DNA of 64,000 nucleotides, from NCBI GenBank assembly GCA_028284925.1, contig JANQQT010000228.1, positions 1 to 64,000 on the forward strand, read 5' to 3'. The position numbers were made by a program, and so were the translations under genes. Of the stretch, positions 6,815 to 46,645 are shown piece after piece (the first letter of the stretch is position 1; each line of letters begins with the position of its first letter). Below the pieces are notes generated by a model. The model searched no databases. It was given only the letters and a program-made list of their open reading frames with translations, and was not told the origin of the DNA. The stretch comes from Phycisphaeraceae bacterium. Lineage in GTDB: Bacteria > Planctomycetota > Phycisphaerae > Phycisphaerales > Zrk34.

Positions 6815-8401
6815 ATGGCCTCGAAGATTCGATTGGGTATGGCGTTTTTGTTGGTGGCGTTTTTTATCGCACCCGCATGGTCGAGTTCCAAAGAAGGTGA
6901 AAAGAAAAAGATCGTCAGCCAGATCAAGAAGCTCGGAGAAGCCGACGCGCTAGATCCAGAGCTTCGAAAGCTCACCAGGTTGACGGAACTGGACCTTGAG
7001 GACGTAAAAATCTCAATCCTACCTTCGGGAATTGGCAAGCTCACAGACTTGAGGCGGTTGAACCTGACGGACAATTACCTCACGACCTTACCTCCGGATA
7101 TTGGCAAGCTCACCAATTTGGAGTGGCTGGCCGTTGGGCAAAACGAAATCACAGTACCCTCCGAGATCGGCAAGCTATCCAATTTGAAGCGGCTGGAACT
7201 CGACCACAACTATTTCAGCAAGCTTCCACCGGAGATTGGCAAACTCACGAAGTTGGAGTGGCTGAACCTCGAACGCAACAAACTTGCCACGATACCGCCT
7301 GAGATTGGTAAGCTCAGGAATCTCAAGTTGCTGAACCTGAACGGCAATAAACTCACCAAGCTGCCGCCTGAGATCGGTAAGCTCACGAAGTTGGGGCGAC
7401 TGGTCCTCAGCCGCAGCAAACTCACAACCCTACCTCCGGAGATTGGCAAGCTCACCAAGTTGGAGCGGCTGGACGTTGACCGCAACAAACTCAATACCCT
7501 ACCTCCGGAGATCGGAAAGCTAACCAAGTTGAAGCGGCTGAATCTTGGGCAGAACCGACTCACGATACCGCCGGAGATCGGAAAGCTTACGAATTTGGAG
7601 TGGCTGGCCATCGACTACAACAATTTCCTTAAGCTTCCGCCAGAGATCGGCACGCTCACCAAGTTGGAATTGCTGGATCTAGAAGCCAACAGCCTCGCCA
7701 AGCTACCGCCAGAGATCGGAAAACTCTGGAATCTGAAGTTGCTGGATCTGAACAATAATCAACTCACCACCCTACCGCCAGAAATCGGCAATCTTGTAAG
7801 TTTGGAGCGGCTCCGCCTTAGGCGAAATAAACTCACCACGCTGCCACAAGAGATCGGCTGGCTCACGAATCTTGAGGGGCTGGTCCTCAACCGTAATAAA
7901 CTAACGACCTTACCGGCCGGGATTGGCGGACTAACGAACCTGGAGGGGATGCACCTTGACTACAACCAACTCACCACGCTTCCACCGGAAATTGGCAAGC
8001 TTACGAGTTTGAAACGGCTGAAGGTTACATTCAACCAACTCACCACGTTACCGCGTGAGATCGGCGGGCTTACAAATCTGGAGGGAGCAAACTTCGAATA
8101 TAACAAGCTTACCAGGCTTCCGCGTGAGATTGGCAGGCTCAAGAATCTGAAATGGTTGTACCTGCAGAATAATAAACTGACCGCGCTTCCGCCCGAAATT
8201 GGCGAGCTCAGAACACTAACGGCACTGTACCTCGGTGACAATCCCATCACGGACGCTGATCTGGATTCTTTGAACTCACTGATAAACCTGCAGTGGCTGG
8301 ATCTCAGGGGAACAAAGGTCACCAAACAGGGCGTAGCAGCACTTCGGTTGGCGTTGCCAAAGTGCACCATTCAAAGCGACTTCGACAAAAAACGGCCTTG
8401 A
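6815..8401 (+). CDS. Secreted leucine-rich-repeat protein
   Basis: A 528-residue protein with a signal peptide (MASKIRLGMAFLLVAFFIAPAWS) followed by 18 recognisable repeats of about 23 residues, consensus LPPEIGKLTxLxxLxLxxNxLTT. Two repeats (PSEIG after EITV, PPEIG after LTI) are one residue short. The last units change to ITDADLDSLNSLINLQWLDLRGTKVT and a cap ALPKCTIQ, an ending common in planctomycete LRR proteins. The repeats resemble the long LRR class of bacterial and plant proteins and suggest protein-protein contact outside the cytoplasm; no enzymatic domain is present. AGGAG lies seven bases before the ATG. DNA repeats are similar enough that unequal recombination could change copy number. 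Confidence 0.9.
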   Translation: MASKIRLGMAFLLVAFFIAPAWSSSKEGEKKKIVSQIKKLGEADALDPELRKLTRLTELDLEDVKISILPSGIGKLTDLRRLNLTDNYLTTLPPDIGKLTNLEWLAVGQNEITVPSEIGKLSNLKRLELDHNYFSKLPPEIGKLTKLEWLNLERNKLATIPPEIGKLRNLKLLNLNGNKLTKLPPEIGKLTKLGRLVLSRSKLTTLPPEIGKLTKLERLDVDRNKLNTLPPEIGKLTKLKRLNLGQNRLTIPPEIGKLTNLEWLAIDYNNFLKLPPEIGTLTKLELLDLEANSLAKLPPEIGKLWNLKLLDLNNNQLTTLPPEIGNLVSLERLRLRRNKLTTLPQEIGWLTNLEGLVLNRNKLTTLPAGIGGLTNLEGMHLDYNQLTTLPPEIGKLTSLKRLKVTFNQLTTLPREIGGLTNLEGANFEYNKLTRLPREIGRLKNLKWLYLQNNKLTALPPEIGELRTLTALYLGDNPITDADLDSLNSLINLQWLDLRGTKVTKQGVAALRLALPKCTIQSDFDKKRP

Positions 8402-9042
8402 CCGGCCGGGTTTACCTTCCTTTGTACTTATCAACCCAAACGGAATCAGTCTCACCACTCATTAGGCGCTCGGGTAAAATTCGTTTCCGCGCGTCGTTGT
8501 ATTCCTCGGATGGCAACTTGGAAACGCCTGTCTTTCTCCGGCCTTACAATTCGTACGTGATTCCAGTTTGACCTTGTTCGGTAGCACTCGGCAGACGTGA
8601 ACGGGACAGTAGACACACCCGCCTACATACATTGAAGGTAGTACAGAAACGGTGGTAAGGTCAGTTTGTCGACCACGGTTTCCGAGTATTGCATGTGGGG
8701 TGTGTGAATGCAGGTGCGGCAGGGAGGTACCGGATGATGATTTATAGCCATGTCTGCCCGAATGTCCCATTCAATGACATGAACGCATCGAATGACCTTG
8801 TTATTCGCATGAAAATGGATTATTCATATAGTCCGAAAGCGTCTTCTCTTGTTGATAATCTGCCCATTCGATGCGGCGAACGATCCGTTTTCATATTGTC
8901 ATGCGTCTGATTGGCTGATATGCTGAAACGCTTGAGTTGAGATTCAGGCCTTGCGATGGGGGATAAAGGGGGTTTTTCGGACAGTGGATAGCGGATTGGC
9001 ACTGTGAGCAGGGTGGTCTGAACGTGTTGATAAGGGTTGACG
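8402..9042. other. Non-coding region after the LRR gene
   Basis: About 640 bases. Directly after the LRR stop there is a short inverted repeat (CGGCC and GGCCG around 8391-8410) without a strong T-run, a weak terminator at best. Short open frames occur on both strands but lack recognisable motifs or good ribosome sites. I see no RNA gene. Confidence 0.4.
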
Positions 9043-23355: not shown

Positions 23356-25557
23356 ATGAGCTTGATCCCCGTAAAATCATTCCGCGGGAAACTGGTGGTT
23401 TGTTCCGTCCTTGCGACGTTTATTGCCGTGGTGATTACCTGCGCGATGACGGTTGTGTTTAATACGCCGAATGTCAAGGACGCGGCCGCACTTGATCTTA
23501 GTCGCAGGGCACGCATACTTGCTGCGGGAAGCGGTGAGCACCTGGCGAATCATCGATTGGACGATCTGAAGGAACTTCTTTCATCTGTTAAATTTGATTG
23601 TGACATACTTGCCGCTCATGTCTTTGATCCTCAGGGCAATCTTGTTGCGGAAATACAACCACCCGGTGTGAGCATCCATCTTTCTGAATCACCTCCCAAA
23701 CGCGATATCACCTGGCGTGGTGATTTGCTCACTGCCTCGAGCCAAGTCTGGTACAACAAGAAGCCGATAGGGACATTGGCTTTGTACAGCGATACAAGCG
23801 CGCGACAGGCTCCCTATCGGGCGCGCATTGCGATGGCCATCATTGCGGGTGTACTGGCTATTCTGCTGTCCTCGCTTTTGGCCATTCGATTCAGTCGAAA
23901 GATGGCCGGTCCTATCGATGAGCTTCGCGAAATTGCGGATCGTATCGCTTTCGACCACGACAATGTTATCCCCGCGTCTCGAACGGGCAATGATGAGTTG
24001 GTCGATCTTACGGATCGGTTCAAGAGCCTGATGGTTGAGATTCAGATGCGCGATCTGGAGCTTCAGATGGCGCATGATCAATTGGAAAAACGCGTCAGTC
24101 AGCGAACAGCCGAGTTGGAAGCTCAAACCGCAACCCTCAATCAGGAAGTCAGCGAACGTAGACGTGTCGAGAAACAGCTTTGGCACAATGCGTTGCACGA
24201 TGGTCTTACCAATCTTCCGAATCGCTCACTTCTTATGAGTCGACTTGAGCAATCTGTAGACCGAGCCAAACGTCTGGATACCTATTACTTTGCTGTTCTC
24301 TATATGGACCTTGATGATTTCAAAATCATCAACGACTCGCTAGGGCATCAGGCGGGTGATGACCTTCTTCGAGGCATCGGTGATCGATTACAGACTTGTC
24401 TGCGAAAACTCGACATGACCTCCAGGCCCACGGATACCACCACGGCCCGATTGGGTGGCGATGAATTTGTCGTGCTTCTTGACGGCCTCAAGAGACCTGA
24501 AGATGCGGTGAGCGTTGCCCAACGAATTCGCGAGGTCATGAACCAGCCGTTCCAGATCGCCAACCGTGAGATCGTATCGCGAATCAGTATCGGAATTGCT
24601 ACCAGTGACCATACACATCAGTCCGGCGGAGATATTCTTCGTGATGCCGATACCGCCCTTTACCACGCCAAGGCTGAGGGTAAGGGGTGCTATGCTGTCT
24701 TTAATTCCCAGATGCGTGAGAAAGCCATAGCAAGACTCGCGTTGGAAACCGACATGCATAAGATGATTGATAACGGGGAACTTCGCCTTGTCTATCAGCC
24801 GATTGTCTCTCTCGAATCAGGTCTAGTTGAAGGATTTGAGGCTCTGGTGCGCTGGGATCACCCGGAGAAGGGCATCATCAGTCCTGCGGAATTCGTTCCC
24901 ATAGCGGAGGAGACGGGCCTGATCGTTCCTCTGGGCAATTGGGTTTTGCTCGAAGCCTGTCGCCAACTGCAGCAATGGCGCGAGAGATTTGAGGAGCACC
25001 GTCGTATGACGGTCAGCGTCAACGTATCCAGCAGGCAGATCGTCGGCGACGAAATGGTAAAAGTTCTTGAGAATACGCTTGAGGAGACGCGACTTCCCTG
25101 TGAACTGCTCAATATCGAAATTACCGAAACGGTCATGATTCGGGATTTTGAACGAGCCCAGATTGTTCTCAACGAAATTAAATCCCGAGGTATTGGCCTC
25201 CGTATGGATGACTTTGGCACGGGATACTCCTCCCTGAGCTACCTTCACGCAGTTCCTATTGACGCGATCAAACTTGATCAGACGTTCATTCGCAACGCCG
25301 CCTTGGATGGGGAACACGGATCGACCATTCAGGCGGTCGTTACGCTTGCAAAAAACCGCGGGTTCAAAGTAATTGCTGAAGGCGTCGAAACGATCGATCA
25401 CCTCATGCAGTTGCAGGCTCTGGAATGCGAATATGCTCAAGGTTACTTCTTTGCCAAACCAATGCTTGCCAGTGAAGTGGAGGACATGTTGATCAATGGC
25501 CCGTCCTGGCTGAAGCATTCGTCCGAACAGGACGAGGTATCCAGCGAACATCGTTGA
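23356..25557 (+). CDS. Membrane-bound GGDEF-EAL c-di-GMP protein
   Basis: A 733-residue protein. A first membrane helix (KLVVCSVLATFIAVVITCAMTV) is followed by a periplasmic sensor region of about 110 residues resembling CHASE8, a second helix (MAIIAGVLAILLSSLLAI), HAMP and a coiled coil with ELEAQTATLNQEVSE. The GGDEF motif is intact at 367-371, but eight or so extra residues (around MTSRPTDT) separate it from the preceding RKLD, disturbing the usual I-site spacing. The EAL motif is at 495-497, and VNVSSRQ, EITETVMI, DDFGTGYSSL and AEGVET are present. It may therefore both make and break c-di-GMP. The start is supported only by similarity. Confidence 0.93.
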   Translation: MSLIPVKSFRGKLVVCSVLATFIAVVITCAMTVVFNTPNVKDAAALDLSRRARILAAGSGEHLANHRLDDLKELLSSVKFDCDILAAHVFDPQGNLVAEIQPPGVSIHLSESPPKRDITWRGDLLTASSQVWYNKKPIGTLALYSDTSARQAPYRARIAMAIIAGVLAILLSSLLAIRFSRKMAGPIDELREIADRIAFDHDNVIPASRTGNDELVDLTDRFKSLMVEIQMRDLELQMAHDQLEKRVSQRTAELEAQTATLNQEVSERRRVEKQLWHNALHDGLTNLPNRSLLMSRLEQSVDRAKRLDTYYFAVLYMDLDDFKIINDSLGHQAGDDLLRGIGDRLQTCLRKLDMTSRPTDTTTARLGGDEFVVLLDGLKRPEDAVSVAQRIREVMNQPFQIANREIVSRISIGIATSDHTHQSGGDILRDADTALYHAKAEGKGCYAVFNSQMREKAIARLALETDMHKMIDNGELRLVYQPIVSLESGLVEGFEALVRWDHPEKGIISPAEFVPIAEETGLIVPLGNWVLLEACRQLQQWRERFEEHRRMTVSVNVSSRQIVGDEMVKVLENTLEETRLPCELLNIEITETVMIRDFERAQIVLNEIKSRGIGLRMDDFGTGYSSLSYLHAVPIDAIKLDQTFIRNAALDGEHGSTIQAVVTLAKNRGFKVIAEGVETIDHLMQLQALECEYAQGYFFAKPMLASEVEDMLINGPSWLKHSSEQDEVSSEHR

Positions 25558-25751
25558 GTTTCTGTTTGTTAGCCGTGAAATGGCTCAGGCATTCCAACAC
25601 TTCTTTTTTTCCGCAATCTTTGATTTTTTCCGTGGTTCCATTAATGAAAATGTGCGTTCGTTGATTTTCAAAAATGGGGTTACAACGCATCCTGGATGCC
25701 CTATTCTATTGCTTTACGTTGTGTCCTTTATCAGGCCAAGGAGTGAACAGC

Positions 25752-26498
25752 ATGCATTCCCGGATTTTTCTATCGATCGTACCCGTCGTCCTGGTCGCAA
25801 TTGCCTTTTGTCTTCCTGCGGTCACGCATGCAAAAGTCAAATCCAAACCGAAAAAGAAACGCGTCAATCCGGTTTTCGCACCGGTCAAGGATGATCCGGG
25901 CCTGCCACGCGTCCTTATCATCGGTGATTCCATATCAATCGGGTACACGCTGGGTGTGCGTGCAAATCTCAAAGGTAATGCCAACGTCCATCGCGCCCCA
26001 ACCAATTGTGGGCCGACGACCCGTGGTCTTGCAAAGATCGATGAGTGGCTTGGCAAAGAAAAATGGGACGTCATCCATTTCAATTGGGGGCTACACGATC
26101 TTAAATACATCACCAAGACGGGTAAACGTGTTCATCCGGACAAAGGAAAAATACAGGTTCCCAAAGAGCGGTATGAAAAGAACCTCCGCAAACTTGTCCA
26201 GCGAATGAAAAAGACCGGTGCTGTGCTGATCTGGTGTTCCACGACACCGGTCCCTGAAGGTTCGCATGGCCGTATCGCCGGCGATTCCGTCAAATACAAT
26301 GCTGTCGCCAGGAAAGTCATGGAATCTGAAAAGGGTGTAATCACCAACGACCTTTATGCCTTTACCAAACCCCAGCTCGGCAAAATCCAAAACAAGCGTG
26401 ATGTTCACTTCCATCGGGCAGGAAATGCTGTAATCTCAAAGTACGTCGCAGGCGTTATCTTGAAGCACCTGCCAAGATCCAAACCCAAGGCTGACTGA
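25752..26498 (+). CDS. Exported SGNH/GDSL hydrolase
   Basis: A 248-residue protein with a signal peptide (MHSRIFLSIVPVVLVAIAFCLPAVTHA), a basic linker KVKSKPKKKR, and an SGNH hydrolase fold. Block I is LIIGDSISIG with the nucleophilic Ser; NWGLHD is the Asn block; RDVHFHRAGNAVIS supplies the Asp-x-x-His pair. These enzymes usually deacetylate or de-esterify polysaccharides. The frame is open upstream, but AAGGAG nine bases before ATG 25752 and the signal peptide fix the start. The next gene is the gspE-like gene, 59 bases downstream, with its own likely promoter. Confidence 0.88.
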   Translation: MHSRIFLSIVPVVLVAIAFCLPAVTHAKVKSKPKKKRVNPVFAPVKDDPGLPRVLIIGDSISIGYTLGVRANLKGNANVHRAPTNCGPTTRGLAKIDEWLGKEKWDVIHFNWGLHDLKYITKTGKRVHPDKGKIQVPKERYEKNLRKLVQRMKKTGAVLIWCSTTPVPEGSHGRIAGDSVKYNAVARKVMESEKGVITNDLYAFTKPQLGKIQNKRDVHFHRAGNAVISKYVAGVILKHLPRSKPKAD

Positions 26499-26557
26499 TT
26501 TTTCGCTTGATCTGACTGCGCGCATTCTGTTTGCTCGAAAATCCTGCATAAACTTTA

Positions 26558-27742
26558 ATGATGGTTTTTGATGAACTTACCCAACATGCCGATGCTCGGG
26601 CCATGGTCGATCATCTGCTTGCCCAGGCACTGCATCGGTCTGCGTCTGACATTCACATTGATCCTCAGGCCGACGGGGTGCATTTCCGTCTTCGAATTGA
26701 TGGCCTTCTCCATGATCCTGAAGTCATCCCTGCAGAAGCCGGTCGTGCCGTTGTTACGCGCCTAATGGTTATGGCTCAACTTCTTACATACAGACTCGAC
26801 GTTCCCCAGGAAGGTCGTCTGACGTTTGCTCCAAAGTCAAATGAGAGTCCATCCAAGGGGAATTCTTCGCAACATGGTCCAAGTAGGCTTTCTTCGCTCG
26901 TGGGAGGAAACTACAGCGGGGTGACTGTGGTGGATATGAGAGTGAGCGTGATGCCCACGACGCATGGTTTGCGGGCCGTTATACGATTACCTGCCGAGCT
27001 TGCCCAGCCTCGCCGGCTTAATGAGTTAGGTCTATCTGAGCCTCCGCTCAACGCTCTTCTTCAATTCGCCCAAATGGATACGGGTCTCCTACTTTTAACC
27101 GGTCCCGCCGGCTCGGGCAAAACCACTACCATCTACGCACTGCTTCAGCATATTTTTGATACGCAAGACGGTGTCAGCATCATTTCACTTGAAGACCCTG
27201 TAGAACGCGACCTTCCTGGTGTTTCGCAAGTCCAGGTCTCTTCCCAGGGACAATTAACCTACGATCGTGCCCTTGCGGGCATTATGCGACAAGATCCTCA
27301 GGTTCTCGCCCTTGGCGAAATTCGTGATCGAAATACCGCGTCGATTGCGATCCAGGCTGCGCTTTCGGGTCATCGTCTAATCGCTACACTTCACGCAGGT
27401 TCGTCTGTCGCGGCGCTGGCTCGACTGATCGAGATGAATATCGAACCCTACCAGATTACCAGTGCTCTTTTTGGAGTCATCAATCAACGGCTTGTGCGAA
27501 GGTCTTTTGAATCCGACACATCAGACGATTATCGTGGTCGCGCGGTTATTGCTAACTTCACCGACGTCAACGAAGCCCTCCGAAGCGCGATCATTGAGCA
27601 TCCGGATTCCGATTCGCTTCATGCCGCCGTCATTGCACAGCCTCACTATCATTCGCTACGTACCGTAGCCGATGACCTCGTCACGAAGGGCGTCACACGC
27701 CGGCAGGAGGTCGAGCGCGTGCTTGGCCCAGTAGATCCATAA
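26558..27742 (+). CDS. Short GspE/PilB-like secretion ATPase
   Basis: A 394-residue type II secretion/type IV pilus assembly ATPase. It starts almost directly at ASDIHIDPQADGVHFRLRIDG, so the usual N-terminal N1E domain is absent. Walker A is GPAGSGKTTT (residues about 184-193), the Asp box is SLEDPVERDLPGVSQVQV, Walker B is VLALGEIRD, and the His box is ATLHAG. The tetracysteine zinc motif of GspE is lacking, and a Ser-rich loop (SNESPSKGNSSQHGPS) is inserted before DMRVSVMPT. It is the first gene of a six-gene tight operon. ATG 26558 or 26561 may be used; TAAACT is three to six bases upstream, and no Shine-Dalgarno sequence is seen. Confidence 0.9.
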   Translation: MMVFDELTQHADARAMVDHLLAQALHRSASDIHIDPQADGVHFRLRIDGLLHDPEVIPAEAGRAVVTRLMVMAQLLTYRLDVPQEGRLTFAPKSNESPSKGNSSQHGPSRLSSLVGGNYSGVTVVDMRVSVMPTTHGLRAVIRLPAELAQPRRLNELGLSEPPLNALLQFAQMDTGLLLLTGPAGSGKTTTIYALLQHIFDTQDGVSIISLEDPVERDLPGVSQVQVSSQGQLTYDRALAGIMRQDPQVLALGEIRDRNTASIAIQAALSGHRLIATLHAGSSVAALARLIEMNIEPYQITSALFGVINQRLVRRSFESDTSDDYRGRAVIANFTDVNEALRSAIIEHPDSDSLHAAVIAQPHYHSLRTVADDLVTKGVTRRQEVERVLGPVDP

Positions 27743-27794
27743 CCAGTATATTGTCCAATACCTGCTGCCAATCGCGAACCTAGCCTTATTCATT

Positions 27795-29048
27795 ATGCCG
27801 GAACACGCCATTCAATCCGACTCGCTTCAGGCATTTGCGTATACCGCCCAGAGTCGCGAGGGCCTTTCTGTTAGTGGAACGATCGACGCCGTTGATGCTG
27901 ATGAGGCGCGATGGCGTTTGAACGAAGTGGGTCTACGCGTTCTTGTTCTTCGTCGTGCGGGGCGTCCAAGCAAGACCAAATCCATTCGAAGTAATGAATT
28001 TCTCGCATTCAACCAGCAGCTCGCCCACCTTACGGAATCAGGCATGCCTCTCGAGCAGGGTCTCCGCCTGATTGCGACTGATATCGACTCTACGAAGCAA
28101 TCCAACGCCATCAGCGCAATCGCAGACTCTCTCGAATCCGGTGACTCGCTTGCCGAGGCCTTTGAAAAACACAGCTCTGTCTTCCCTGCTCTCTATGGGC
28201 GCGTTATCCAGGCTGGCGTCAAATCAGGCAACCTTAGTGGCATCCTGCTTAACCTGGGACAACATTTCGAACTTATCCAACGACTCCGCCGCACCATTTG
28301 GAACGCGGCTACTTATCCCCTCGTCATTTTGATTATGTTTCTAATCATTCTCAGTTTCATTGGCGCATTTCTTGCTCCGCAGATGGAAGCTCAGTTTGAT
28401 AATTTCACTGACCTTGTAGACGATGCGCAATCCCTTCCATTAATTTCTCGTTTCGTTTTTGCGGTGGCTGAATTCATCCCATATTTCACAACGGTTTTTG
28501 TGCTTTCCGTTGTTGCCGTATGGTTTGCATGGTCTCGTCAGAAGCACCCAGACGCGGCTATTCCCGCCTCCAAACGTCGCTTATTACGTTTTCCTCTAAT
28601 CGGTCGCGTTTTGTGTCATAGTCTTACCGCCCGTTGGTGTGGAGCGGTTGGTATGGGCGTCCGTGCGGGCCTTGATCTTCCGGCCGCCATCTCCTTGGCT
28701 GCCGATGCTGTCGGAACCAATGCGCTTGCTCAGGACAGCCAGATTCTCATCAAAGCTCACAGTGAGGGTCGACCGCTTGAGACGGTCGACACTCTCACGG
28801 TTTTGTCGCCGTCTGTTATAGTTGCAATGGATCTGGCGATGCAACGCAACGATTTGATACGAGCTCTTTCCACTCTCACCCAAATGTATCGCGATCAGGC
28901 CGAGCAGCGACTTGAAACGCTCTCTTCCGTCCTTCGCCCGATGCTCATTATCGTCGCAGGCGCTGTCATCGCGGTCGCCATTCTTGGAATCTTCGTCCCT
29001 CTGGTACAGTTGATCGAAACGGTAACTTCATCAATAAACAATGCTTAG
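27795..29048 (+). CDS. GspF-like inner-membrane platform protein 1
   Basis: A 417-residue GspF/PilC-family protein. The N-terminus (FAYTAQSREGLSVSGTIDAVDADEARWRL) matches the GspF start domain; EFLAFNQQLAHLTESGMPLEQGLRLIA opens the first T2SSF domain; TYPLVILIMFLIILSFIGAFLAPQME and LRPMLIIVAGAVIAVAILGIFVPL are membrane helices. Such proteins form the membrane platform on which pseudopilins assemble. It lies 52 bases after gspE-like and overlaps the next GspF-like gene by eight bases. Confidence 0.9.
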   Translation: MPEHAIQSDSLQAFAYTAQSREGLSVSGTIDAVDADEARWRLNEVGLRVLVLRRAGRPSKTKSIRSNEFLAFNQQLAHLTESGMPLEQGLRLIATDIDSTKQSNAISAIADSLESGDSLAEAFEKHSSVFPALYGRVIQAGVKSGNLSGILLNLGQHFELIQRLRRTIWNAATYPLVILIMFLIILSFIGAFLAPQMEAQFDNFTDLVDDAQSLPLISRFVFAVAEFIPYFTTVFVLSVVAVWFAWSRQKHPDAAIPASKRRLLRFPLIGRVLCHSLTARWCGAVGMGVRAGLDLPAAISLAADAVGTNALAQDSQILIKAHSEGRPLETVDTLTVLSPSVIVAMDLAMQRNDLIRALSTLTQMYRDQAEQRLETLSSVLRPMLIIVAGAVIAVAILGIFVPLVQLIETVTSSINNA

Positions 29049-30183
29049 TTTCTTTCTACAGATTCACAGCACCCTCATATTCCTTGCCGTTGTTGCGGGG
29101 CCTTGGATCGCTGCGCTTGTATTCGAATCGATTTGTCGCACACGTCGTCGGCGACTCGCCACCATACTGATCCATTTCAACCAGGCCATTCGTTGCGATC
29201 TCCCGCTCCCCGCCATGCTCAAAGCCGCCGCGCGCTCAGACGAAGATCGCATCGTGAGGCGCTACCTTGCCCAACTGGCTGAATGCCTGCAAAAGGGCGC
29301 TTTACTGAGTACCGCGATGCGGGAGTCCATTCGTTCTGTTCCCCAACGCGTCGTTGGTCTCATCTCTACTGCCGAGCGTACTGGCAGCCTAAAGTCCACG
29401 ATTAACTACCTGGCAGATGGCCTTAACCAAAGTATCCAATCCAGACGTAAGTCGTTCGCTGGAATCTACATCACCCTCCTTCTCTTCATGACTACCGCAC
29501 ATTTCGTCGTCGTCATGTTTAGAATCAACCCTGAACTGCAGCAATACGCGTATCTTTCAACGGACATTCTTGGTGTGTCGCAATATACCTGGTCCATCCT
29601 TGTATACTCAGTCATCACTGTTGTCGTTCTGGCCTACCTGCTAGTTGTTACCTCGGCGAGTGATCAAATTAGCGCCCTACTGTTGCGATTTGCACATGCC
29701 TTTGATCTGATTTTGTACCGTATTCCTGTAGTTGGCGCGATTCAGCGCGATAGAGGCCTCACTGATGTCTGTCACGTTGCTGCTGGTGCCCTTGAAGCCG
29801 GGATATCCCTGAATCGCGCTATCGCGGAAGCGGAACACGTTGGCATCAATCGCGCCTTGCGGTCGCAACTTCGTTGCTGGATTGTTCGCCTTGAAGCCGG
29901 TGATTCCCCCGCGGAGGCAGCCCGGAAGGCCCACTTACCAAGTCTTGTCGTCGGTATGGTGCGTTCCGGTACAGCGGCCGGAAATCTTGCTCAGGTGTTC
30001 GACTTTATGGGTCACTATTTTTCAGCCAAGTTCAGTCGCGCAGTCACAACGCTTCGTGCCGCCCTGGGGCCGACATTGGTTATCCTCATTGGTATCCTTA
30101 CCGCCATTGTCGCGTATCAACTTATGCTCCCCTTTCTTGATGCCAAGCTCTGGGAACTTAAGGAGATGGGGGTGGGATCTTGA
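29041..30183 (+). CDS. GspF-like inner-membrane platform protein 2
   Basis: A 380-residue second T2SSF-domain protein, diverged from the first. HFNQAIRCDLPLPAMLKAAARSDEDRIVRRYLAQ and CHVAAGALEAGISLNRAIAEAEH each resemble the start of a T2SSF repeat. Membrane helices are at the N-terminus (LIFLAVVAGPWIAALVF), mid-protein (GIYITLLLFMTTAHFVVVMF, STWSILVYSVITVVVLAYLLVV) and C-terminus (ALGPTLVILIGILTAIVAYQLM). Two platform proteins in tandem are unusual. Overlap of eight bases upstream and four downstream (ATGA) indicates co-translation. Confidence 0.85.
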   Translation: MLSFFLQIHSTLIFLAVVAGPWIAALVFESICRTRRRRLATILIHFNQAIRCDLPLPAMLKAAARSDEDRIVRRYLAQLAECLQKGALLSTAMRESIRSVPQRVVGLISTAERTGSLKSTINYLADGLNQSIQSRRKSFAGIYITLLLFMTTAHFVVVMFRINPELQQYAYLSTDILGVSQYTWSILVYSVITVVVLAYLLVVTSASDQISALLLRFAHAFDLILYRIPVVGAIQRDRGLTDVCHVAAGALEAGISLNRAIAEAEHVGINRALRSQLRCWIVRLEAGDSPAEAARKAHLPSLVVGMVRSGTAAGNLAQVFDFMGHYFSAKFSRAVTTLRAALGPTLVILIGILTAIVAYQLMLPFLDAKLWELKEMGVGS

Positions 30184-37734: not shown

Positions 37735-38142
37735 ATGCGGGACGAATTCAAGACACTCGTTCCTTTCAGCTTCACAGCCATCATGCTGTGGGCGTCTCTG
37801 TTAGTCGGCTGCTCTGCTCCACCAGCCCGCGAAGGCGGATTCCACTCGCCAAACCCGGCGTCTAAACTCTATGCCATCATCAAGGCGGGTCAGGCACGCG
37901 ATAAATCTCAGATCCCCGACCTGATCGAGCAACTCAACAGTGATGACATTGCTGTTCGCATGATGGCGATCATTGCACTGCGCGAAATTACCGGAAAAGA
38001 CATGGGCTATCGCTATTACGATTCCCCATTTTCTCGTGATACTGCTATTAAGAAATGGGTCGCAGAATACGCATCACCCAGCTCGATAGCGCCTTCCGAT
38101 GCACCCCCATCGGATTTCGTGACTGGGAAATTCAGCCGTTAG
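37735..38142 (+). CDS. Predicted lipoprotein with a HEAT-like repeat
   Basis: A 135-residue protein with an export signal ending in the lipobox LLVGC (Cys at about residue 26), followed by SAPPAREGG. The body has one HEAT-like pair, IPDLIEQLNSDDIAVRMMAIIALREITGKDMGY, ending SRDTAIKKWVAEY, a pattern common in small planctomycete lipoproteins. The C-terminal 25 residues are low-complexity Ser/Pro. Function is unknown. The RsbW-like gene begins 11 bases downstream. Confidence 0.7.
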   Translation: MRDEFKTLVPFSFTAIMLWASLLVGCSAPPAREGGFHSPNPASKLYAIIKAGQARDKSQIPDLIEQLNSDDIAVRMMAIIALREITGKDMGYRYYDSPFSRDTAIKKWVAEYASPSSIAPSDAPPSDFVTGKFSR

Positions 38143-38153
38143 ATTTTTTTACC

Positions 38154-38624
38154 ATGACGAGTCAAAATGACATCGAAATTTGCGTTCCTTCACAACCACG
38201 CTATCTCTGTGTCGTTCGCGCTGCCGTTGGCATGGCTGTCGAGAAGTTCGGTTTCGTTCATGAAGTACGTCATGCCATACAGCTCGTCGTTGATGAAGCA
38301 CTGTCGAACATCATTCGTCACGGTTACGATGGCCGCGAGGATGGTCCAATACGCATAAGCCTCCGTGAGATTCCCGGCGGTAATGAAAACGATCAGGCCG
38401 AAATTCAGATCATCATTGAGGATGAAGCAAAGCAAATCGATCCCAGGCAGATCCAGGGGCGCGAACTTGATGACATTCGGCCCGGCGGACTCGGTGTTCA
38501 CCTCATTAAGGAAATCATGGATGAGGTCACCTATGTTCCCCGCGAAAGGATTGGCATGCGATTAACCATGCGAAAGTTCATTGACAAATCTGATCTGGTG
38601 CAACAAGAAGGACCTTCCGTATGA
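38154..38624 (+). CDS. RsbW-like anti-sigma factor / serine kinase
   Basis: A 156-residue HATPase_c_2 protein. The N-box is VVDEALSNIIRHGYD, the G1 region is IEDEAKQIDP (the usual Gly is Ala) and the G2 region is PGGLGVHLI. These proteins bind a sigma factor or other target and phosphorylate a STAS partner on Ser. The STAS gene overlaps by four bases (ATGA), so this is a kinase/antagonist pair. The frame is open upstream into the lipoprotein gene, but ATG 38154 begins the domain. No sigma factor gene is in this operon; an MlaE-like permease follows instead. Confidence 0.86.
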   Translation: MTSQNDIEICVPSQPRYLCVVRAAVGMAVEKFGFVHEVRHAIQLVVDEALSNIIRHGYDGREDGPIRISLREIPGGNENDQAEIQIIIEDEAKQIDPRQIQGRELDDIRPGGLGVHLIKEIMDEVTYVPRERIGMRLTMRKFIDKSDLVQQEGPSV

Positions 38625-38965
38625 CTCAACAACCGCTGACTGAAGTTGCCGAGACTCTCTCCGATGGTATCGTCGTCTCTATATACGGTGACATTGACCT
38701 TCAACGCTCGCCGGACCTCCGCATCGCACTCATCCAACACACCGAAGGCTCACACGGACGTCTCATTGTCGATCTCACGTCCGTCTCATATATGGATAGC
38801 TCAGGCGTGGCCACTCTCGTCGAGGTTCTTCAATACCAATGCCGAAGCGGTGGATCGCTTATTCTCTGTAATCTCCAACCTAACGTCCAAAGCATTTTTG
38901 AAATCTCAAAACTCGATTCCGTCTTCAACATCGTTCCCGATATTGATACCGCACGCACCGCCTAG
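38621..38965 (+). CDS. STAS-domain protein (anti-sigma antagonist or MlaB-like)
   Basis: A 114-residue single STAS domain. DGIVVSIYGDIDLQRSPDLR is the first strand-helix unit, and YMDSSGVATLVEVLQ has the Ser usually phosphorylated by an RsbW kinase. With the RsbW-like gene overlapping upstream, the reading is an RsbV/SpoIIAA-type antagonist. MlaB, the STAS subunit of the MlaFEDB lipid transporter, has the same fold and the next gene is MlaE-like, so it may instead be a transporter subunit under kinase control. Confidence 0.87.
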   Translation: MTQQPLTEVAETLSDGIVVSIYGDIDLQRSPDLRIALIQHTEGSHGRLIVDLTSVSYMDSSGVATLVEVLQYQCRSGGSLILCNLQPNVQSIFEISKLDSVFNIVPDIDTARTA

Positions 38966-39012
38966 CCGATGATCCTTGCAGCAGGATGTACCTCCATCCC
39001 GGTGCAAGAAAT

Positions 39013-39852
39013 ATGTCGGACTCTCAAACCAAAAAAACGACTGGCCGAATTGTCGCCCAGGTTACACGCCTCGGTGGGGCTATCAACGCTTCGCTTGAGT
39101 ATGTCGGTGGCATGGCGTACATGGCTCTGGATACACTCGTATGGTGTGGTAGAGCGTGGTTTAGAAAAGGCGTCCGATTCGGTCGCGAAGCACTCTATGG
39201 TCAGATTGTGCGCATCGGTGTACGCTCCATCTTTATCATTGCTCTCCTTTGCGCCTGTATTGGCATGATCCTCACGCTCCAGATGGCTCCACCGCTTGAA
39301 GACTTCGGTCAGAAAGATGTGGTTGCGAATATTGTCGGTGTGGCTGTCCTTCGAGAACTTGGTCCCCTCATCAGCGCCATCGTACTCACCGGATTTGCCG
39401 GCGCATCCATCGCCGCCGAAATTGGAACCATGGTCGTTGGTGAGGAGATCGAAGCCCTCGAATCCATGGCACTTAACCCCGTTCGTTTTCTGGTTCTCCC
39501 ACGCGTCCTTGCTTCCGTTATCAGTCTTACGTTGCTCTGCGTTTTTGGCGATGTCATTGCGATCCTTGCTTCCGCCGGTGCAAGCTGGCTTATTCTCGAC
39601 GTTCCGCTTGGTGTTTTCGAATCAAACCTATTGGGTCAGGTAAAACTCTCCGATTTCCTTACCGGCGTAGGTAAGGCTGCCATTTTCGGTTTCCTTATTG
39701 GACTTATCTCCTGCTACAACGGACTCCGCGTCAGCGGCGGTGCAGCCGGCGTCGGTCACGCCACTACACTCACGGTTGTGCACTCCATCGTGTCCATCAT
39801 TGTCGCGGACATGATCTTTACCGCTATCTTCTACATACTCGGCTGGGCATGA
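39013..39852 (+). CDS. MlaE-like ABC permease
   Basis: A 279-residue MlaE/YrbE family permease. FIIALLCACIGMILTLQMAPPLEDFG is the first membrane segment; VAVLRELGPLISAIVLTGFAGASIAAEIGTMVVGEEIEALESMALNP is the family signature including the coupling region; three more hydrophobic segments follow. Such permeases move phospholipids or other hydrophobic molecules between membranes. The usual MlaF ATPase and MlaD substrate-binding genes do not follow; the next gene is opposite. ATG 38986 is also in frame; neither start has a strong ribosome site. Confidence 0.88.
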   Translation: MSDSQTKKTTGRIVAQVTRLGGAINASLEYVGGMAYMALDTLVWCGRAWFRKGVRFGREALYGQIVRIGVRSIFIIALLCACIGMILTLQMAPPLEDFGQKDVVANIVGVAVLRELGPLISAIVLTGFAGASIAAEIGTMVVGEEIEALESMALNPVRFLVLPRVLASVISLTLLCVFGDVIAILASAGASWLILDVPLGVFESNLLGQVKLSDFLTGVGKAAIFGFLIGLISCYNGLRVSGGAAGVGHATTLTVVHSIVSIIVADMIFTAIFYILGWA

Positions 39853-42188: not shown

Positions 42189-43145
42189 TTACTCCCTCGC
42201 GCTGGGCTTCTTAGACTGATCGCCCGATGTAAAAGCATAAACAATCGTTCCAGCCAGTGGAACCAGCACAAATGCCGCCAGTATCCACGACGGACTGATC
42301 GAAAAATACCAGGATGCCAAAATCAGGATTCCCAAACTCAGCAGGAACGCCGCCCCAAGTAATAACCTCGCTCGCTTTGTAAGCGTCTCCAACCGCATAT
42401 TCAGTCGCGTGAAGAATGCGAATATCGAATTCATCGAATGATAAGCGTGATGCATTCCGTTCCTGGCCGATTCATTTGTCGGATCGATCCGCAGGCACTC
42501 CCGAAAATGATAACAAGCCTTCTTCGCCTCGCCCTTTTGCAAAAATGCCCACCCATGTGTCTCATGTGCATCCGCATCATCCGGCCCGAGCTTCAACGCT
42601 TCCTCCGATAAACTCATAGCCTCATCTCGGTCCCCCATCCAACGTACCAGTTCCGCCCGCAATACTCGCGCCTCAAGCATTTCCGGGTCAAGCTCAAGCG
42701 TCGTCCCGATCACTTCCAACGCCTTTCTTCGCCTCTCCTTCACACAAAGGATTCGTGCCTTCAATAGATGGACACGTGCCTCATAAGGATCAAGTCTTAG
42801 ACTTTCCTCCACCGCCTCCATCGCGATGTCCATACGCTTACCTGTCCCTCTTCCCGTCATCGCCGCGACCCGGTGGCCCTTTCTTCCTTCCCAATGCTCA
42901 TCATTGAAAATCACCAACGCCCGTACGAAATGCACATACGCGTCGTCCGGTTCTAGTGTCACCGCCCGCTCCGCTGTCTCATTCGCCTCTGCATGTCTCC
43001 CAGTCAGCGAACAGCACAACGCCACAATTGCTGTCGCCTCACTATTCTCCGGCTCCTCACACAACACGCGCCCCGCGTATTCCTCCGCGAGCTCATAGCG
43101 TCTCTGTTCATACGCAATCCACGCTTGGGCTAACTGCCTGCTCAT
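42189..43145 (-). CDS. TPR membrane protein 2
   Basis: A 318-residue protein, third gene of the AAA+ operon. Five or six TPR units cover about residues 1-245 (for example RRYELAEEYAGRVLCEEPEN, AMSLSEEALKLGPDDADAHETHGWAFLQ, ACYHFRECLRIDPTNESARNGM). After a basic amphipathic stretch FFTRLNMRLETLTKRARLL come two membrane helices (LGAAFLLSLGILILASWYF, PSWILAAFVLVPLAGTIVYAF) and a short basic tail. It aligns along its length with TPR membrane protein 1, including FNDEHW in place of FSDEHW and RLNMRLE in place of RFNMRVE, so the two are duplicates. The TPR part is probably cytosolic. Confidence 0.82.
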   Translation of the reverse strand: MSRQLAQAWIAYEQRRYELAEEYAGRVLCEEPENSEATAIVALCCSLTGRHAEANETAERAVTLEPDDAYVHFVRALVIFNDEHWEGRKGHRVAAMTGRGTGKRMDIAMEAVEESLRLDPYEARVHLLKARILCVKERRRKALEVIGTTLELDPEMLEARVLRAELVRWMGDRDEAMSLSEEALKLGPDDADAHETHGWAFLQKGEAKKACYHFRECLRIDPTNESARNGMHHAYHSMNSIFAFFTRLNMRLETLTKRARLLLGAAFLLSLGILILASWYFSISPSWILAAFVLVPLAGTIVYAFTSGDQSKKPSARE

Positions 43146-43161
43146 TCCAATGAATCCAGCT

Positions 43162-44133
43162 TTACTTCAATCCGTCTTTCTTCTGTTCCTTCTCCAGCAA
43201 TCGAGCTCGGATGGGTGTGAGGTAATACCATGAATAAACGATTGCAAGAAAAGCGATGACACTTCCATAATTCCATAAGAGATTTGGAAAAATCTTCTCA
43301 AAAAAATAATCAAAGATAATGAAAATCGGCAGAATACAAAGACCCAATATCCAGAAACTCTTGTCGCCAAATCGCTCCACACGCATATTGAATCGAAGCA
43401 AACCTGCGTAAATCCGGTTTTTGGATTTCCTGGCACACGTCAATCCAACTCGTGCGATCAGGTTATTGGGATCAATTCGCAATGCCTCCGTGAAGTGATC
43501 AATCGCTTCATCTATTCTGTTTTGCTGGATGTAAACCCATCCCCGTGTGTCATGCGCATCATCATCCTCCGGCTCGATCTCCAATGCCAGCTCTGCCGCC
43601 GCTGCGGCACCTTCGGTTTTGCCTTTGAGTTGTAATATCTTTGAACGCAGCATATGTGCGTCGGCATAGTCGGGATCTATGGTGAGCGTCGTCTGGATTA
43701 CGTCTAGTGCCAATTCATATTTGCTCAGGTGATACAGAATCTGGGCGCGTAGATGATGCGAATCCGCATCGTAGGGGTCAAGCTCAATGCTCACGCGTAC
43801 GGCTGAATGCGCAGCCGAGAGGCGCGCCTTTTCACCCTGTTCCTTAAAGCCCGGAACGGAATGTAATTTTCTCGCAACCCAATGCTCATCGCTAAAAATA
43901 ACCAGTGCATTGACATAGTGTAAATATGAGCTTTCCGGGTTCAACTCAATTGCGCGACGGGCCGGCTCATGCGCTTCCCTTTCCCTGTCGGTCAGAACCA
44001 GGCACAACGCCAATAAACCTAAGGCGTCAGAATCATCCGGGCTTTCTTCCAACGTCTTATTGAGATACTCGATCGCTATCTTGTATCGATCTCGATCAAC
44101 AGCAATCAGAGCCTTGTCGTAATGTTCGCTCAT
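43162..44133 (-). CDS. TPR membrane protein 1
   Basis: A 323-residue protein with TPR units over about residues 1-240 (DRYKIAIEYLNKTLEESPDDSDALGLLALC, ALDVIQTTLTIDPDYADAHMLRSKIL, AIDHFTEALRIDPNNLIARVGL), then FNMRVERFGDKSF, two membrane helices (WILGLCILPIFIIFDYFF, YGSVIAFLAIVYSWYYL) and a charged tail RARLLEKEQKKDGLK. It starts in a four-base ATGA overlap with the AAA+ gene, so the two are translated together. It is a paralogue of the next gene, 16 bases downstream. Likely job: membrane anchor or adaptor for the ATPase, inferred from context. Confidence 0.83.
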   Translation of the reverse strand: MSEHYDKALIAVDRDRYKIAIEYLNKTLEESPDDSDALGLLALCLVLTDREREAHEPARRAIELNPESSYLHYVNALVIFSDEHWVARKLHSVPGFKEQGEKARLSAAHSAVRVSIELDPYDADSHHLRAQILYHLSKYELALDVIQTTLTIDPDYADAHMLRSKILQLKGKTEGAAAAAELALEIEPEDDDAHDTRGWVYIQQNRIDEAIDHFTEALRIDPNNLIARVGLTCARKSKNRIYAGLLRFNMRVERFGDKSFWILGLCILPIFIIFDYFFEKIFPNLLWNYGSVIAFLAIVYSWYYLTPIRARLLEKEQKKDGLK

Positions 44134-45491
44134 CGCAATTTAAGATAATCCAGTATCTCATCATAAGCTCCACCCTGATTCGAATACATCGCATAGTTCC
44201 GAGCTGTGGCAAACCACTCTTTCGTGCTGGGTTTAACCTGCTTTGCCGCTTTCTGCAAATCCTTCGTCATCAAGGGCGTCGGTACTCCCGTCTTCATCGC
44301 ATCCGCCAGCTTTCGCTCCACTGCGATATCAATCATTGCCTTGATATCCGCCCCGCTGAAGTCCTGAATTTTCTTCGCCAATCCCTCTGCATCCACCTTC
44401 TCTACGGGTTTGCCTGCCAACATCAACTCCGTAATTGCCGCGCGTCCTCCTACATCCGGTGGCGGTACAAAAATAATCCGATCAAAACGGCCTGGTCGCC
44501 GAAATGCCGAATCCAAATGCCAAGGCGCATTTGTCGCAGCCAATATCAATACGCCTTCATTTGATGACTGTACGCCATCCAACTCCGCCAGAAACTGATT
44601 GATCGTATGTCGCCCAGCCGATCCTCGCATATCCGATCGGCTCGCCGCCAGTGCATCCACTTCATCAAAGAACAACACGCAAGGCGTATTCGCCCTGGCT
44701 TGCTCAAAAATCGCATGGAGGTGCTGCTCACTGTTTCCGATCCACATATCCAGCACATCGTGAATACTTACACAGATGAACGATGCATTTACCTCACCCG
44801 CAGTCGCACGCGCCAGGTACGTCTTCCCGCACCCAGGCGGTCCGTACATCAATATTCCGCCCCCAATCGCTTTCCCATATGCCTCATACAGTTCGGGGTG
44901 ATTCATCGGATGAATGATCTTCATCCGAATCTCCTCCTTCAATCCCTCCATACCTCCCACGTCCGCAAATTTTACCTTTGGTCTCTCAATCTCCGTCGTC
45001 CCGCTCGCATTCGTCTCCCCATGCCCCGCGCGAATTCGCCCAAGCTCATCCACATCCCCATCATCCTCAAATCCGTCCAAATCGACACCCATTCCCAACT
45101 CGTTCTCAAACGCCGCGTCGGTCAACGATCCATCAGCCTCAATGGCCTTCCGATATTGATGTTTCGCCCCGCTCACATCATCTGTTTCAAAAAGCAACCG
45201 GGCATAGAGCAAGTTGGCTGCAGCATTCGCCTCACCTTCGTGTACCAAATGCTCCATAATGACCATTGCTTCCGATCCCTTCCCATCATACCGATACGCC
45301 TCCGCCAGCGACACCTTCAACGTGGTATCACGCGGCGACAGCTTCGTTGCCTCAAGATATTCCAACGCGGCCTCACCATGACGAGCAAAACTCGTCAGCG
45401 TCTGCGCCAAATGGATCCGCAGAGGCAAATTGTTTGGCGACACCTTTAATGCCTCACGCAACGGCAATATCGCTTCATCACCCGATGCCAT
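44130..45491 (-). CDS. TPR-AAA+ ATPase of Vps4/katanin style
   Basis: A 453-residue protein. The N-terminal 125 residues are three or four TPR-like units (LREALKVSPNNLPLRIHLAQTL, ALEYLEATKLSPRDTTLKVSLAEAY, KHQYRKAIEADGSL). An acidic linker leads to one AAA+ domain opened by VKFADVGGMEGLKEEIRMKIIHP. Walker A is GPPGCGKT (about 217-224), Walker B is VLFFDEVDAL, and arginine fingers are in RRPGRFDR. Pore loop 1 is MWIGNSE, like KWMGESE of Vps4, katanin and spastin. This is the eukaryote-like single-ring remodelling class, not FtsH (no protease domain). GTG 45497 is possible, but AAAGG nine bases before ATG 45491 favours ATG. It leads a three-gene operon. Confidence 0.88.
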   Translation of the reverse strand: MASGDEAILPLREALKVSPNNLPLRIHLAQTLTSFARHGEAALEYLEATKLSPRDTTLKVSLAEAYRYDGKGSEAMVIMEHLVHEGEANAAANLLYARLLFETDDVSGAKHQYRKAIEADGSLTDAAFENELGMGVDLDGFEDDGDVDELGRIRAGHGETNASGTTEIERPKVKFADVGGMEGLKEEIRMKIIHPMNHPELYEAYGKAIGGGILMYGPPGCGKTYLARATAGEVNASFICVSIHDVLDMWIGNSEQHLHAIFEQARANTPCVLFFDEVDALAASRSDMRGSAGRHTINQFLAELDGVQSSNEGVLILAATNAPWHLDSAFRRPGRFDRIIFVPPPDVGGRAAITELMLAGKPVEKVDAEGLAKKIQDFSGADIKAMIDIAVERKLADAMKTGVPTPLMTKDLQKAAKQVKPSTKEWFATARNYAMYSNQGGAYDEILDYLKLR

Positions 45492-45497
45492 AGCCAC

Positions 45498-45792: not shown

Positions 45793-46308
45793 TCACAAAG
45801 GCCAGTTTTCCGATCGACTCCGCTTCGGCGTCATAAATTCTGTCAACTTACATATCAGTAAAATCATTCGCGATGAGAACGGCGGGCGACCATTCTCCAG
45901 CACACCCTTCAGCGTCTTTACGATAAAATCGCCGCCTTGCGACATATACTTCTCTGTCTTCGTACCCTCTGGAACATCCTCTGTCGTCAAGGTAAATTCC
46001 ACACCGTCCTCAACCTCCTTCAATTCATAACTTACCTTGCAGGGCGGATCATCCAGATTCGTAAATTTGAACGTATGGGAATACTTTCGTGGCGGATCAA
46101 ATTCCAGAACCTCACCCACAATCCCGGTGTATTTCCCACTGCGTGTTCGCATTCGTATGGGGGCACCCGGCGCCAAACCCGTCGTATCCAGCATCGAATT
46201 AAAAAAACACGCTATCGGAGTGTCCGTCTTCGTGATCTCACGCCACACATCTTCAATTTTCGCACGAATCAAAACGCGATAAATCTTTTTTGACTGCTCA
46301 GCCATCAC
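45793..46308 (-). CDS. AHSA1-like SRPBCC domain protein
   Basis: A 171-residue START-like protein of the AHSA1 (activator of Hsp90 ATPase homologue) family. The pattern VLIRAKIEDVWREITKTDTPIACFF, GAPIRMRTRSGKYTGIVGEVLEFDPPRKYSHTFKF and ELKEVEDGVEFTLTTEDVPEGTKT is typical. These proteins enclose a hydrophobic ligand. It overlaps the ArsR-type gene by 11 bases, the usual ArsR-AHSA1 pairing in bacteria, where the regulator controls the pair. Ligand unknown. Confidence 0.88.
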   Translation of the reverse strand: MMAEQSKKIYRVLIRAKIEDVWREITKTDTPIACFFNSMLDTTGLAPGAPIRMRTRSGKYTGIVGEVLEFDPPRKYSHTFKFTNLDDPPCKVSYELKEVEDGVEFTLTTEDVPEGTKTEKYMSQGGDFIVKTLKGVLENGRPPFSSRMILLICKLTEFMTPKRSRSENWPL

Positions 46309-46645
46309 CTATTCCTTCTTCTGATTTCGATTCAACCTGGTACTTCAATCTTGTAACCGATGTTGCCCACAATGAGCTGTACTCGGTCGTCCAACGGTCA
46401 TATATCATCTGAATCGGTACCGCGTTAAAATAAAAGTGTCGCGACCGACCCTCCTTTACGGACAACACCAGTTCTCCCTCTTCCAGAATCTTTAGATGCT
46501 TCATCACCGCAATGCGGCTAATCGCAAAATGACTCGATACCTCATTCACATTGCATCCTGCATTGTTTTTGATTATGTCAAGCATCTCGCGCCTCAGCGG
46601 GTGAGCAAGAGCCTGAAACACGTTGTCCATCGATTCAGGTTTCAT
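46298..46645 (-). CDS. ArsR-family transcriptional regulator
   Basis: A 115-residue winged-helix protein: VFQALAHPLRREMLDIIKNNAGCNVNEVSSHFAISRIAVMKHLKILEEGELVLSVKEGRSRHFYFNAVPI is the complete ArsR HTH. Metal-binding CxC of ArsR/SmtB is absent, as expected of the AHSA1-linked branch. A perfect 16-bp palindrome begins two bases upstream of its start codon, so it probably represses its own operon. Co-transcribed with the AHSA1-like gene. Confidence 0.91.
   Translation of the reverse strand: MKPESMDNVFQALAHPLRREMLDIIKNNAGCNVNEVSSHFAISRIAVMKHLKILEEGELVLSVKEGRSRHFYFNAVPIQMIYDRWTTEYSSLWATSVTRLKYQVESKSEEGIGDG

Follow-up and report, generated by a model that had tools for sequence, protein, structure and literature searches.

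Gene organization of the locus

Three genes lie in tandem on the minus strand of the window, i.e., the whole 64,000-nucleotide stretch of DNA that was analyzed. They encode a TPR-AAA+ ATPase and two predicted TPR membrane proteins, T1 and T2:

44130..45497, minus strand: TPR-AAA+ ATPase gene (455 aa, GTG start)
44130..44133, minus strand: ATGA shared by the stop codon of the ATPase gene and the start codon of T1
43162..44133, minus strand: T1 gene (323 aa), TPRs and a C-terminal two-helix membrane hairpin
42189..43145, minus strand: T2 gene (318 aa), tandem paralogue of T1, TPRs and two C-terminal hydrophobic helices

The gene order is ATPase, T1, T2, with 16 nt between T1 and T2. The three open reading frames, the ATGA overlap and the 16-base gap reported in the initial annotation were all located exactly as described there. 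The overlap likely couples translation of the ATPase and T1; in relatives, the spacing between the ATPase and partner genes was often -3 or 0 nt.

Upstream of the ATPase gene by 295 nt, and also on the minus strand, an ArsR-like HTH gene and an AHSA1/SRPBCC gene (45793-46645) look like an ordinary separate pair. On the plus strand, positions 38055-39852 contained a HATPase anti-sigma-like gene, a STAS gene and an MlaE permease gene in a row, and positions 23356-30183 contained a gene for a GGDEF-EAL protein with the E and F genes of type II secretion/type IV pili after it. An MlaD gene (7463-8539) was directly upstream of the TPR-AAA gene in one relative (L112); no Mla gene was recognized upstream of the ATPase in the two other relatives that were read.

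Domains and motifs of the ATPase

Pfam matches to the ATPase comprised one AAA domain (residues 215-345, E 2.6e-41) and, N-terminal to it, TPRs at residues ~4-121. Residues 138-167 formed an acidic linker of low model confidence. Walker A (219-226), pore loop 1 MWIGNSE (251-257), Walker B (274-281), the sensor-1 region ATNAPW (321-326) and the arginine-finger motif, with the fingers within FRRPGRFDR (332-340), were all intact. The initial annotation had described TPR units and a single AAA+ domain with a MWIGNSE pore loop, and the Pfam matches and the pore loop bear this out. A conserved C-terminal tail, STKEWFATARNYAMYSNQGG, occupied residues 424-443, and the C-terminus itself, LKLR, is not an HbYX motif.

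Several domains of related ATPases had no match. There was no MIT domain in Pfam, the N-terminus carrying TPRs instead, and no Vps4_C (PF09336), which the same library detected in another protein (L087). No HExxH/FtsH zinc protease domain was matched, and ~110 residues follow the AAA match. The two AAA domains and N domain of Cdc48 were likewise absent from this protein of one AAA domain and a TPR N-terminus. The structure model was mediocre (pLDDT 72), with the TPR helices and acidic linker visible; given that pLDDT, fold matches of the ATPase serve for class assignment only. Judged from these sequence features, the protein belongs to the classical AAA ATPases of the p97/Vps4 type, has intact catalytic motifs, and is predicted to work like a single-ring AAA motor.

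Conservation and linkage of the ATPase and its partner

A genome scan using the ATPase matched 508 relatives, and 80 were kept. The 80 homologues were ~56-64% identical to the query over nearly its full length and came from Planctomycetota, Verrucomicrobiota, Cyanobacteriota and Melainabacteria; more distant homologues occurred in Actinomycetota. A same-strand gene homologous to T1/T2 followed the ATPase gene in 78 of the 80 loci at a distance of a few bases to ~1 kb, and the first ATPase-partner gap was 120 nt or less in 67 of 80. Of the two exceptions, one contig ends ~200 nt after the ATPase gene, and in the other (L035) no partner was detectable in any frame.

Among 246 Planctomycetota genomes, 43 contained the ATPase and 33 a partner domain with six helices, and 32 were shared (Fisher p ~1e-29, a value that takes no account of kinship among the genomes). 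Contig ends explain the single genome with a partner but no ATPase and one genome with the ATPase alone. Eight loci with a weak six-helix partner match, or none, were inspected (G075, G159 and G242 were left out). One was a contig-end case, and the remaining seven of seven had an adjacent TPR-TM protein, encoded upstream of the ATPase gene; most of these proteins were short, and one or two helices were detected in them. Conservation of gene order had been proposed as a test in the initial annotation; linkage of the ATPase and a partner was kept in the 78 loci and, with the partner upstream, in seven of the eight weak-partner loci. Partners standing apart from the ATPase, which would have spoken against the proposal, were confined to the one contig-end case (32 of 33 with the ATPase).

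A unique three-gene system was rejected: the core has two components, and the number of partners ranged from one to four across relatives. Nor did a conserved third gene appear among the neighbors listed in a comparison that also took in antisense open reading frames. Overall, the pair is a conserved two-component system with a patchy distribution in at least five bacterial groups. The patchiness extends to the window's own order, where the close form of the ATPase was found in 5 of 61 genomes searched.

In Actinomycetota the pair was also present in Streptomyces, Nonomuraea and Actinomyces oris. In an Actinomyces oris plasmid record (L168:3485-5952) the TPR-AAA gene overlaps a TPR membrane-protein gene, and this human oral actinomycete is a possible experimental model. 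Culturable carriers of the pair include Nostoc, Calothrix, Blastopirellula, Lacipirellula, Streptomyces and Actinomyces oris. Two record labels (L059, L166) seem to be in error: the TPR-AAA family occurs in a MAG labeled Klebsiella pneumoniae, and a Nonomuraea 'plasmid' of 11.85 Mb is more likely a chromosome.

That unrelated genes came to be adjacent by chance has next to no probability. TPR proteins are common in planctomycetes, which lends the idea what weight it has, but the linkage is kept in both gene orders and across five or more bacterial groups, and chance adjacency was rejected on the recurrence of the pair in 78 of 80 homologous loci. The membrane-tethered ATPase with TPR partners that the initial annotation proposed for a planctomycete-like cell is supported, in what is a planctomycete of the Phycisphaerae type, and its gene linkage is strongly conserved.

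Partner proteins and the membrane domain

T1 and T2 had strong Pfam TPR matches and two hydrophobic segments each, starting at residues 255 and 281 in T1 and 258 and 280 in T2, as expected from the TPRs and two C-terminal helices of the initial annotation. The hinge noted there (RFNMRVE, RLNMRLE) is real and represents, at this locus, a segment found throughout the family just before helix 1 (consensus YRxMLxYFLWMxRLSxRxQW). The paralogy of the two proteins was also borne out: they were 40-44% identical and formed sisters with high support (99/91 and 100/99). Both carried a ~20-residue insert inside the TPR array. An insert at the same site was found in one partner each of three other loci (L031, L052 and L115), and in some relatives it is the first partner that carries the T1-like insert. 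Placing the insert-bearing partners in a single clade gave a p-AU of 0.32.

The partners of close relatives were larger (~420 aa), with TPRs and about six helices, and this six-helix partner was present in relatives whose ATPase was 56-64% identical to that of the window. A model of the six-helix partner (mean pLDDT 93) contained 14 helices in TPR-like pairs and ~six membrane helices. The matches listed in a fold search with the partner were TPR proteins and gave no information on its membrane domain. Mean column identity of the six-helix domain was ~40%, so the domain might do more than anchor.

No six-helix partner domain was found in the window's genome (92% complete, 311 contigs) by a six-frame search with stops read through. 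A six-helix partner broken by a frameshift or MAG error was considered unlikely: both T1 and T2 are complete proteins of ~320 aa encoded 16 nt apart, and no six-helix remnant was seen. Some short partners of distant Planctomycetota aligned to helices 1-2 of the six-helix domain, strongly in the case of L165 (49.6 bits). The T1 hairpin aligned weakly to the same helices (15.1 bits, against 6.5 for the best of 50 shuffles), and the T2 hairpin scored no higher than its shuffles. On the best tree, two or more changes were needed to account for the two-helix partners; a single clade and origin had a p-AU of 0.23.

The window is a variant in which the partner is a two-helix hairpin protein, duplicated as the sisters T1 and T2. 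Because distant Planctomycetota also use two-helix partners, the TPRs and hairpin are suggested to be the essential part. Similarly, the ATPase is well conserved while the membrane part of the partner varies from one or two to six helices, which suggests that the TPRs and hairpin are the common core.

The multiplied, divergent partners and patchy distribution would also suit a defense or conflict system that senses infection or envelope damage, with the membrane domain as effector. The ATPase had a distant match (117 bits) to the defense ATPase IetA, but only within the AAA domain. The partners had no PADLOC match; there were no known effector, nuclease or sensor domains, and no defense genes were recognized among the annotated window genes around the locus. 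A defensive role is rated highly improbable.

Placement of the ATPase among AAA classes

The nearest solved relatives of the ATPase, by sequence and by fold, were p97/Cdc48. NCBIfam scores were 212 bits for FtsH, 210 for PAN, 210 for CDC48 and 180 for CdvC/Vps4, all far under the curated cut-offs (e.g., FtsH 211.6 bits against 600 and PAN 210 bits against 500).

In the AAA tree, Cdc48 and VAT reference domains were taken from solved-chain alignments; query sequences for Vps4, katanin, spastin and Msp1 were checked against solved chains, and the PAN reference was accepted by score alone (521 bits over 247 residues). The TPR-AAA family formed one clade (100/100) that joined weakly to Vps4/katanin/spastin (81/90). 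Alternative groupings were retained, with p-AU values of 0.20 for TPR-AAA with Cdc48/PAN and 0.37 for TPR-AAA with FtsH. The TN.PW motif was common to the TPR-AAA family, Vps4 and katanin. RRPGRFDR is also retained in the TPR-AAA family, whereas Vps4, katanin, spastin and Msp1 differ there. The MW.G.SE pore loop was rejected as a marker of the Vps4 class since the D2 domain of p97/Cdc48 has it as well (TMWFGESE). For the Vps4/katanin assignment of the initial annotation the signs are divided: TN.PW and the weak tree affinity agree with it, the retained RRPGRFDR and a CdvC score below those of FtsH, PAN and CDC48 do not, and the pore loop, present in p97 D2 as well, does not discriminate.

A pair of this kind has been mentioned before. 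One sentence of a 2024 paper in mSystems (PMC11237479) notes that "VPS4-like" AAA+ genes of bacteria have a TPR-6TM gene as neighbor, with ACB74714.1 as an example. The bacterial VPS4-like genes were read there as transfers from archaea, and function was stated only as membrane-proximal action (PMC11237479). The earlier view that no described system has this set was therefore wrong. No further account of an AAA+/TPR-TM pair was found in the literature searched, which covers few subscription journals.

In a Vps4/ESCRT-like reading, the ATPase would take apart a polymer involved in shaping or sealing membranes. The TPR-TM protein would replace ESCRT-III, either recruiting the ATPase or forming the polymer. 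The tree affinity and TN.PW point this way, as does publication of the pair as VPS4-like with Snf7 'displaced' (PMC11237479). Against it, the ATPase is without MIT and Vps4_C and keeps RPGRFDR, its CdvC profile score is lower than those for FtsH, PAN and CDC48, and neither an ESCRT-III protein (Snf7/CdvB) nor PspA was found in the 92%-complete genome. Overall, this reading is considered unlikely.

Two loci from the window's order contained other AAA proteins. On one short contig (L169:279-4823, genome G013), a reverse transcriptase, an FGE-type stretch, a Snf7-like protein, a Vps4-like AAA protein and a caspase-GYF protein are all encoded in the same direction. The FGE-type stretch resembles the variable region of a diversity-generating retroelement, the Snf7-like protein (E 8e-4) is under the Pfam cut-off, and the Vps4-like AAA protein has a Vps4_C match. 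This is possibly a bacterial ESCRT-III/Vps4 pair in a conflict-type locus; the terms Snf7, ESCRT and Vps4 were absent from two papers on bacterial conflict systems. The other locus (L088:109-2298, genome G037) encodes a bacterial two-domain Cdc48-like AAA protein of 729 aa, the first AAA domain of which groups with archaeal and plant Cdc48 D1.

The ATPase could also be a dedicated assembly or secretion accessory, in the manner proposed for EccA in type VII secretion, recycling or assembling one envelope complex with the partner as membrane adaptor. The TPR-AAA architecture is that of EccA, the partner is placed in the membrane, and occurrence in 43 of 246 genomes is patchy, as for accessory systems. 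However, the EccA profile scored 30 bits against a cut-off of 467 with the match confined to the AAA domain, and the neighbors listed included no conserved third gene; such an accessory role is judged distinctly unlikely.

Proposed mechanism

The ATPase and its partner may well form a membrane-docked AAA+ unfoldase or dislocase, the favored of the readings considered, to which we give about even weight for and against. As read from sequence, the pair has intact threading-ring motifs, no protease domain, a TPR N-terminus and obligately linked TPR membrane partners; TPRs are predicted on both proteins and membrane helices only on the partner. The ATPase would form a cytoplasmic hexamer, and the partners would be inserted in the inner membrane so that the TPR arms reach into the cytoplasm, a topology favored because no signal peptide was seen, basic segments lie beside the helices and the number of helices is even. 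The TPR arms of the partners would hold the ring at the membrane, present clients, or both, and recruitment of the ATPase through TPR-TPR contacts is presumed. ATP hydrolysis would then thread clients through the pore; these would be proteins within or attached to the membrane, or assemblies of such proteins, and would be released unfolded or dissociated without proteolysis, like clients of p97 and Msp1. In the window, T1 and T2 may combine in mixed docking sites, or the clients of the two may differ. Gene linkage would fit other shared processes, and polymer disassembly by the ATPase is possible since the published precedent reads it as VPS4-like.

A broader version of the dislocase reading, in which the pair is a general membrane-protein dislocase and a widespread bacterial counterpart of p97/Msp1, with a soluble TPR-AAA ring docked by interchangeable TPR membrane receptors, is put forward tentatively and is somewhat doubtful. 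If true, a TPR arm with a hairpin would be the smallest sufficient receptor, as exemplified by the window and the distant two-helix loci, and duplication of and insertion in receptors would diversify clients.

FtsH, in which motor and protease are fused, is regarded as the main means by which bacteria extract proteins from the inner membrane. If many environmental bacteria also have a conserved AAA motor that works without proteolysis and has membrane receptors of its own, this would add a new branch to membrane-protein quality control or membrane remodeling, and the pair would bear on the origin of Vps4- and p97-type machines. With two genes only, it is easy to test.

Comparison with known systems

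The published pair (PMC11237479) and the window have in common a classical AAA+ gene adjoining a TPR membrane-protein gene, and going by the published description alone, the window trio appears to belong to the same family as the ACB74714.1 pair. The published partner has six membrane helices, whereas the window partners have two each and occur as a tandem pair. Added here to the earlier account are the linkage statistics, the reach into Actinomycetota, the two-helix variant, the duplicated insert-bearing partners, and an AAA domain that may group with Vps4, Cdc48/PAN or FtsH.

EccA of type VII secretion resembles the ATPase in having a TPR domain followed by an AAA domain; the profile match is weak and limited to AAA, and no type VII genes were recognized near the window pair. 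Vps4/CdvC, katanin and spastin are likewise single classical AAA rings with an N-terminal adaptor domain, and Vps4 and katanin have TN.PW. In contrast to these, the window ATPase has no MIT or Vps4_C, keeps RPGRFDR, and has no ESCRT-III substrate in its genome. Msp1/ATAD1 resembles the pair in the proposed working mode, a membrane-held AAA motor extracting proteins, but the anchor of Msp1 is in its own chain and that of the window is a separate protein, and the sequences are not specifically close. With p97/Cdc48, the ATPase has in common the MW.G.SE pore loop as in D2, the RPGR arginine-finger motif and no protease, and it differs in its single AAA domain, in an N-terminus of TPRs where Cdc48 has its N domain, and in a membrane adaptor encoded in its operon.
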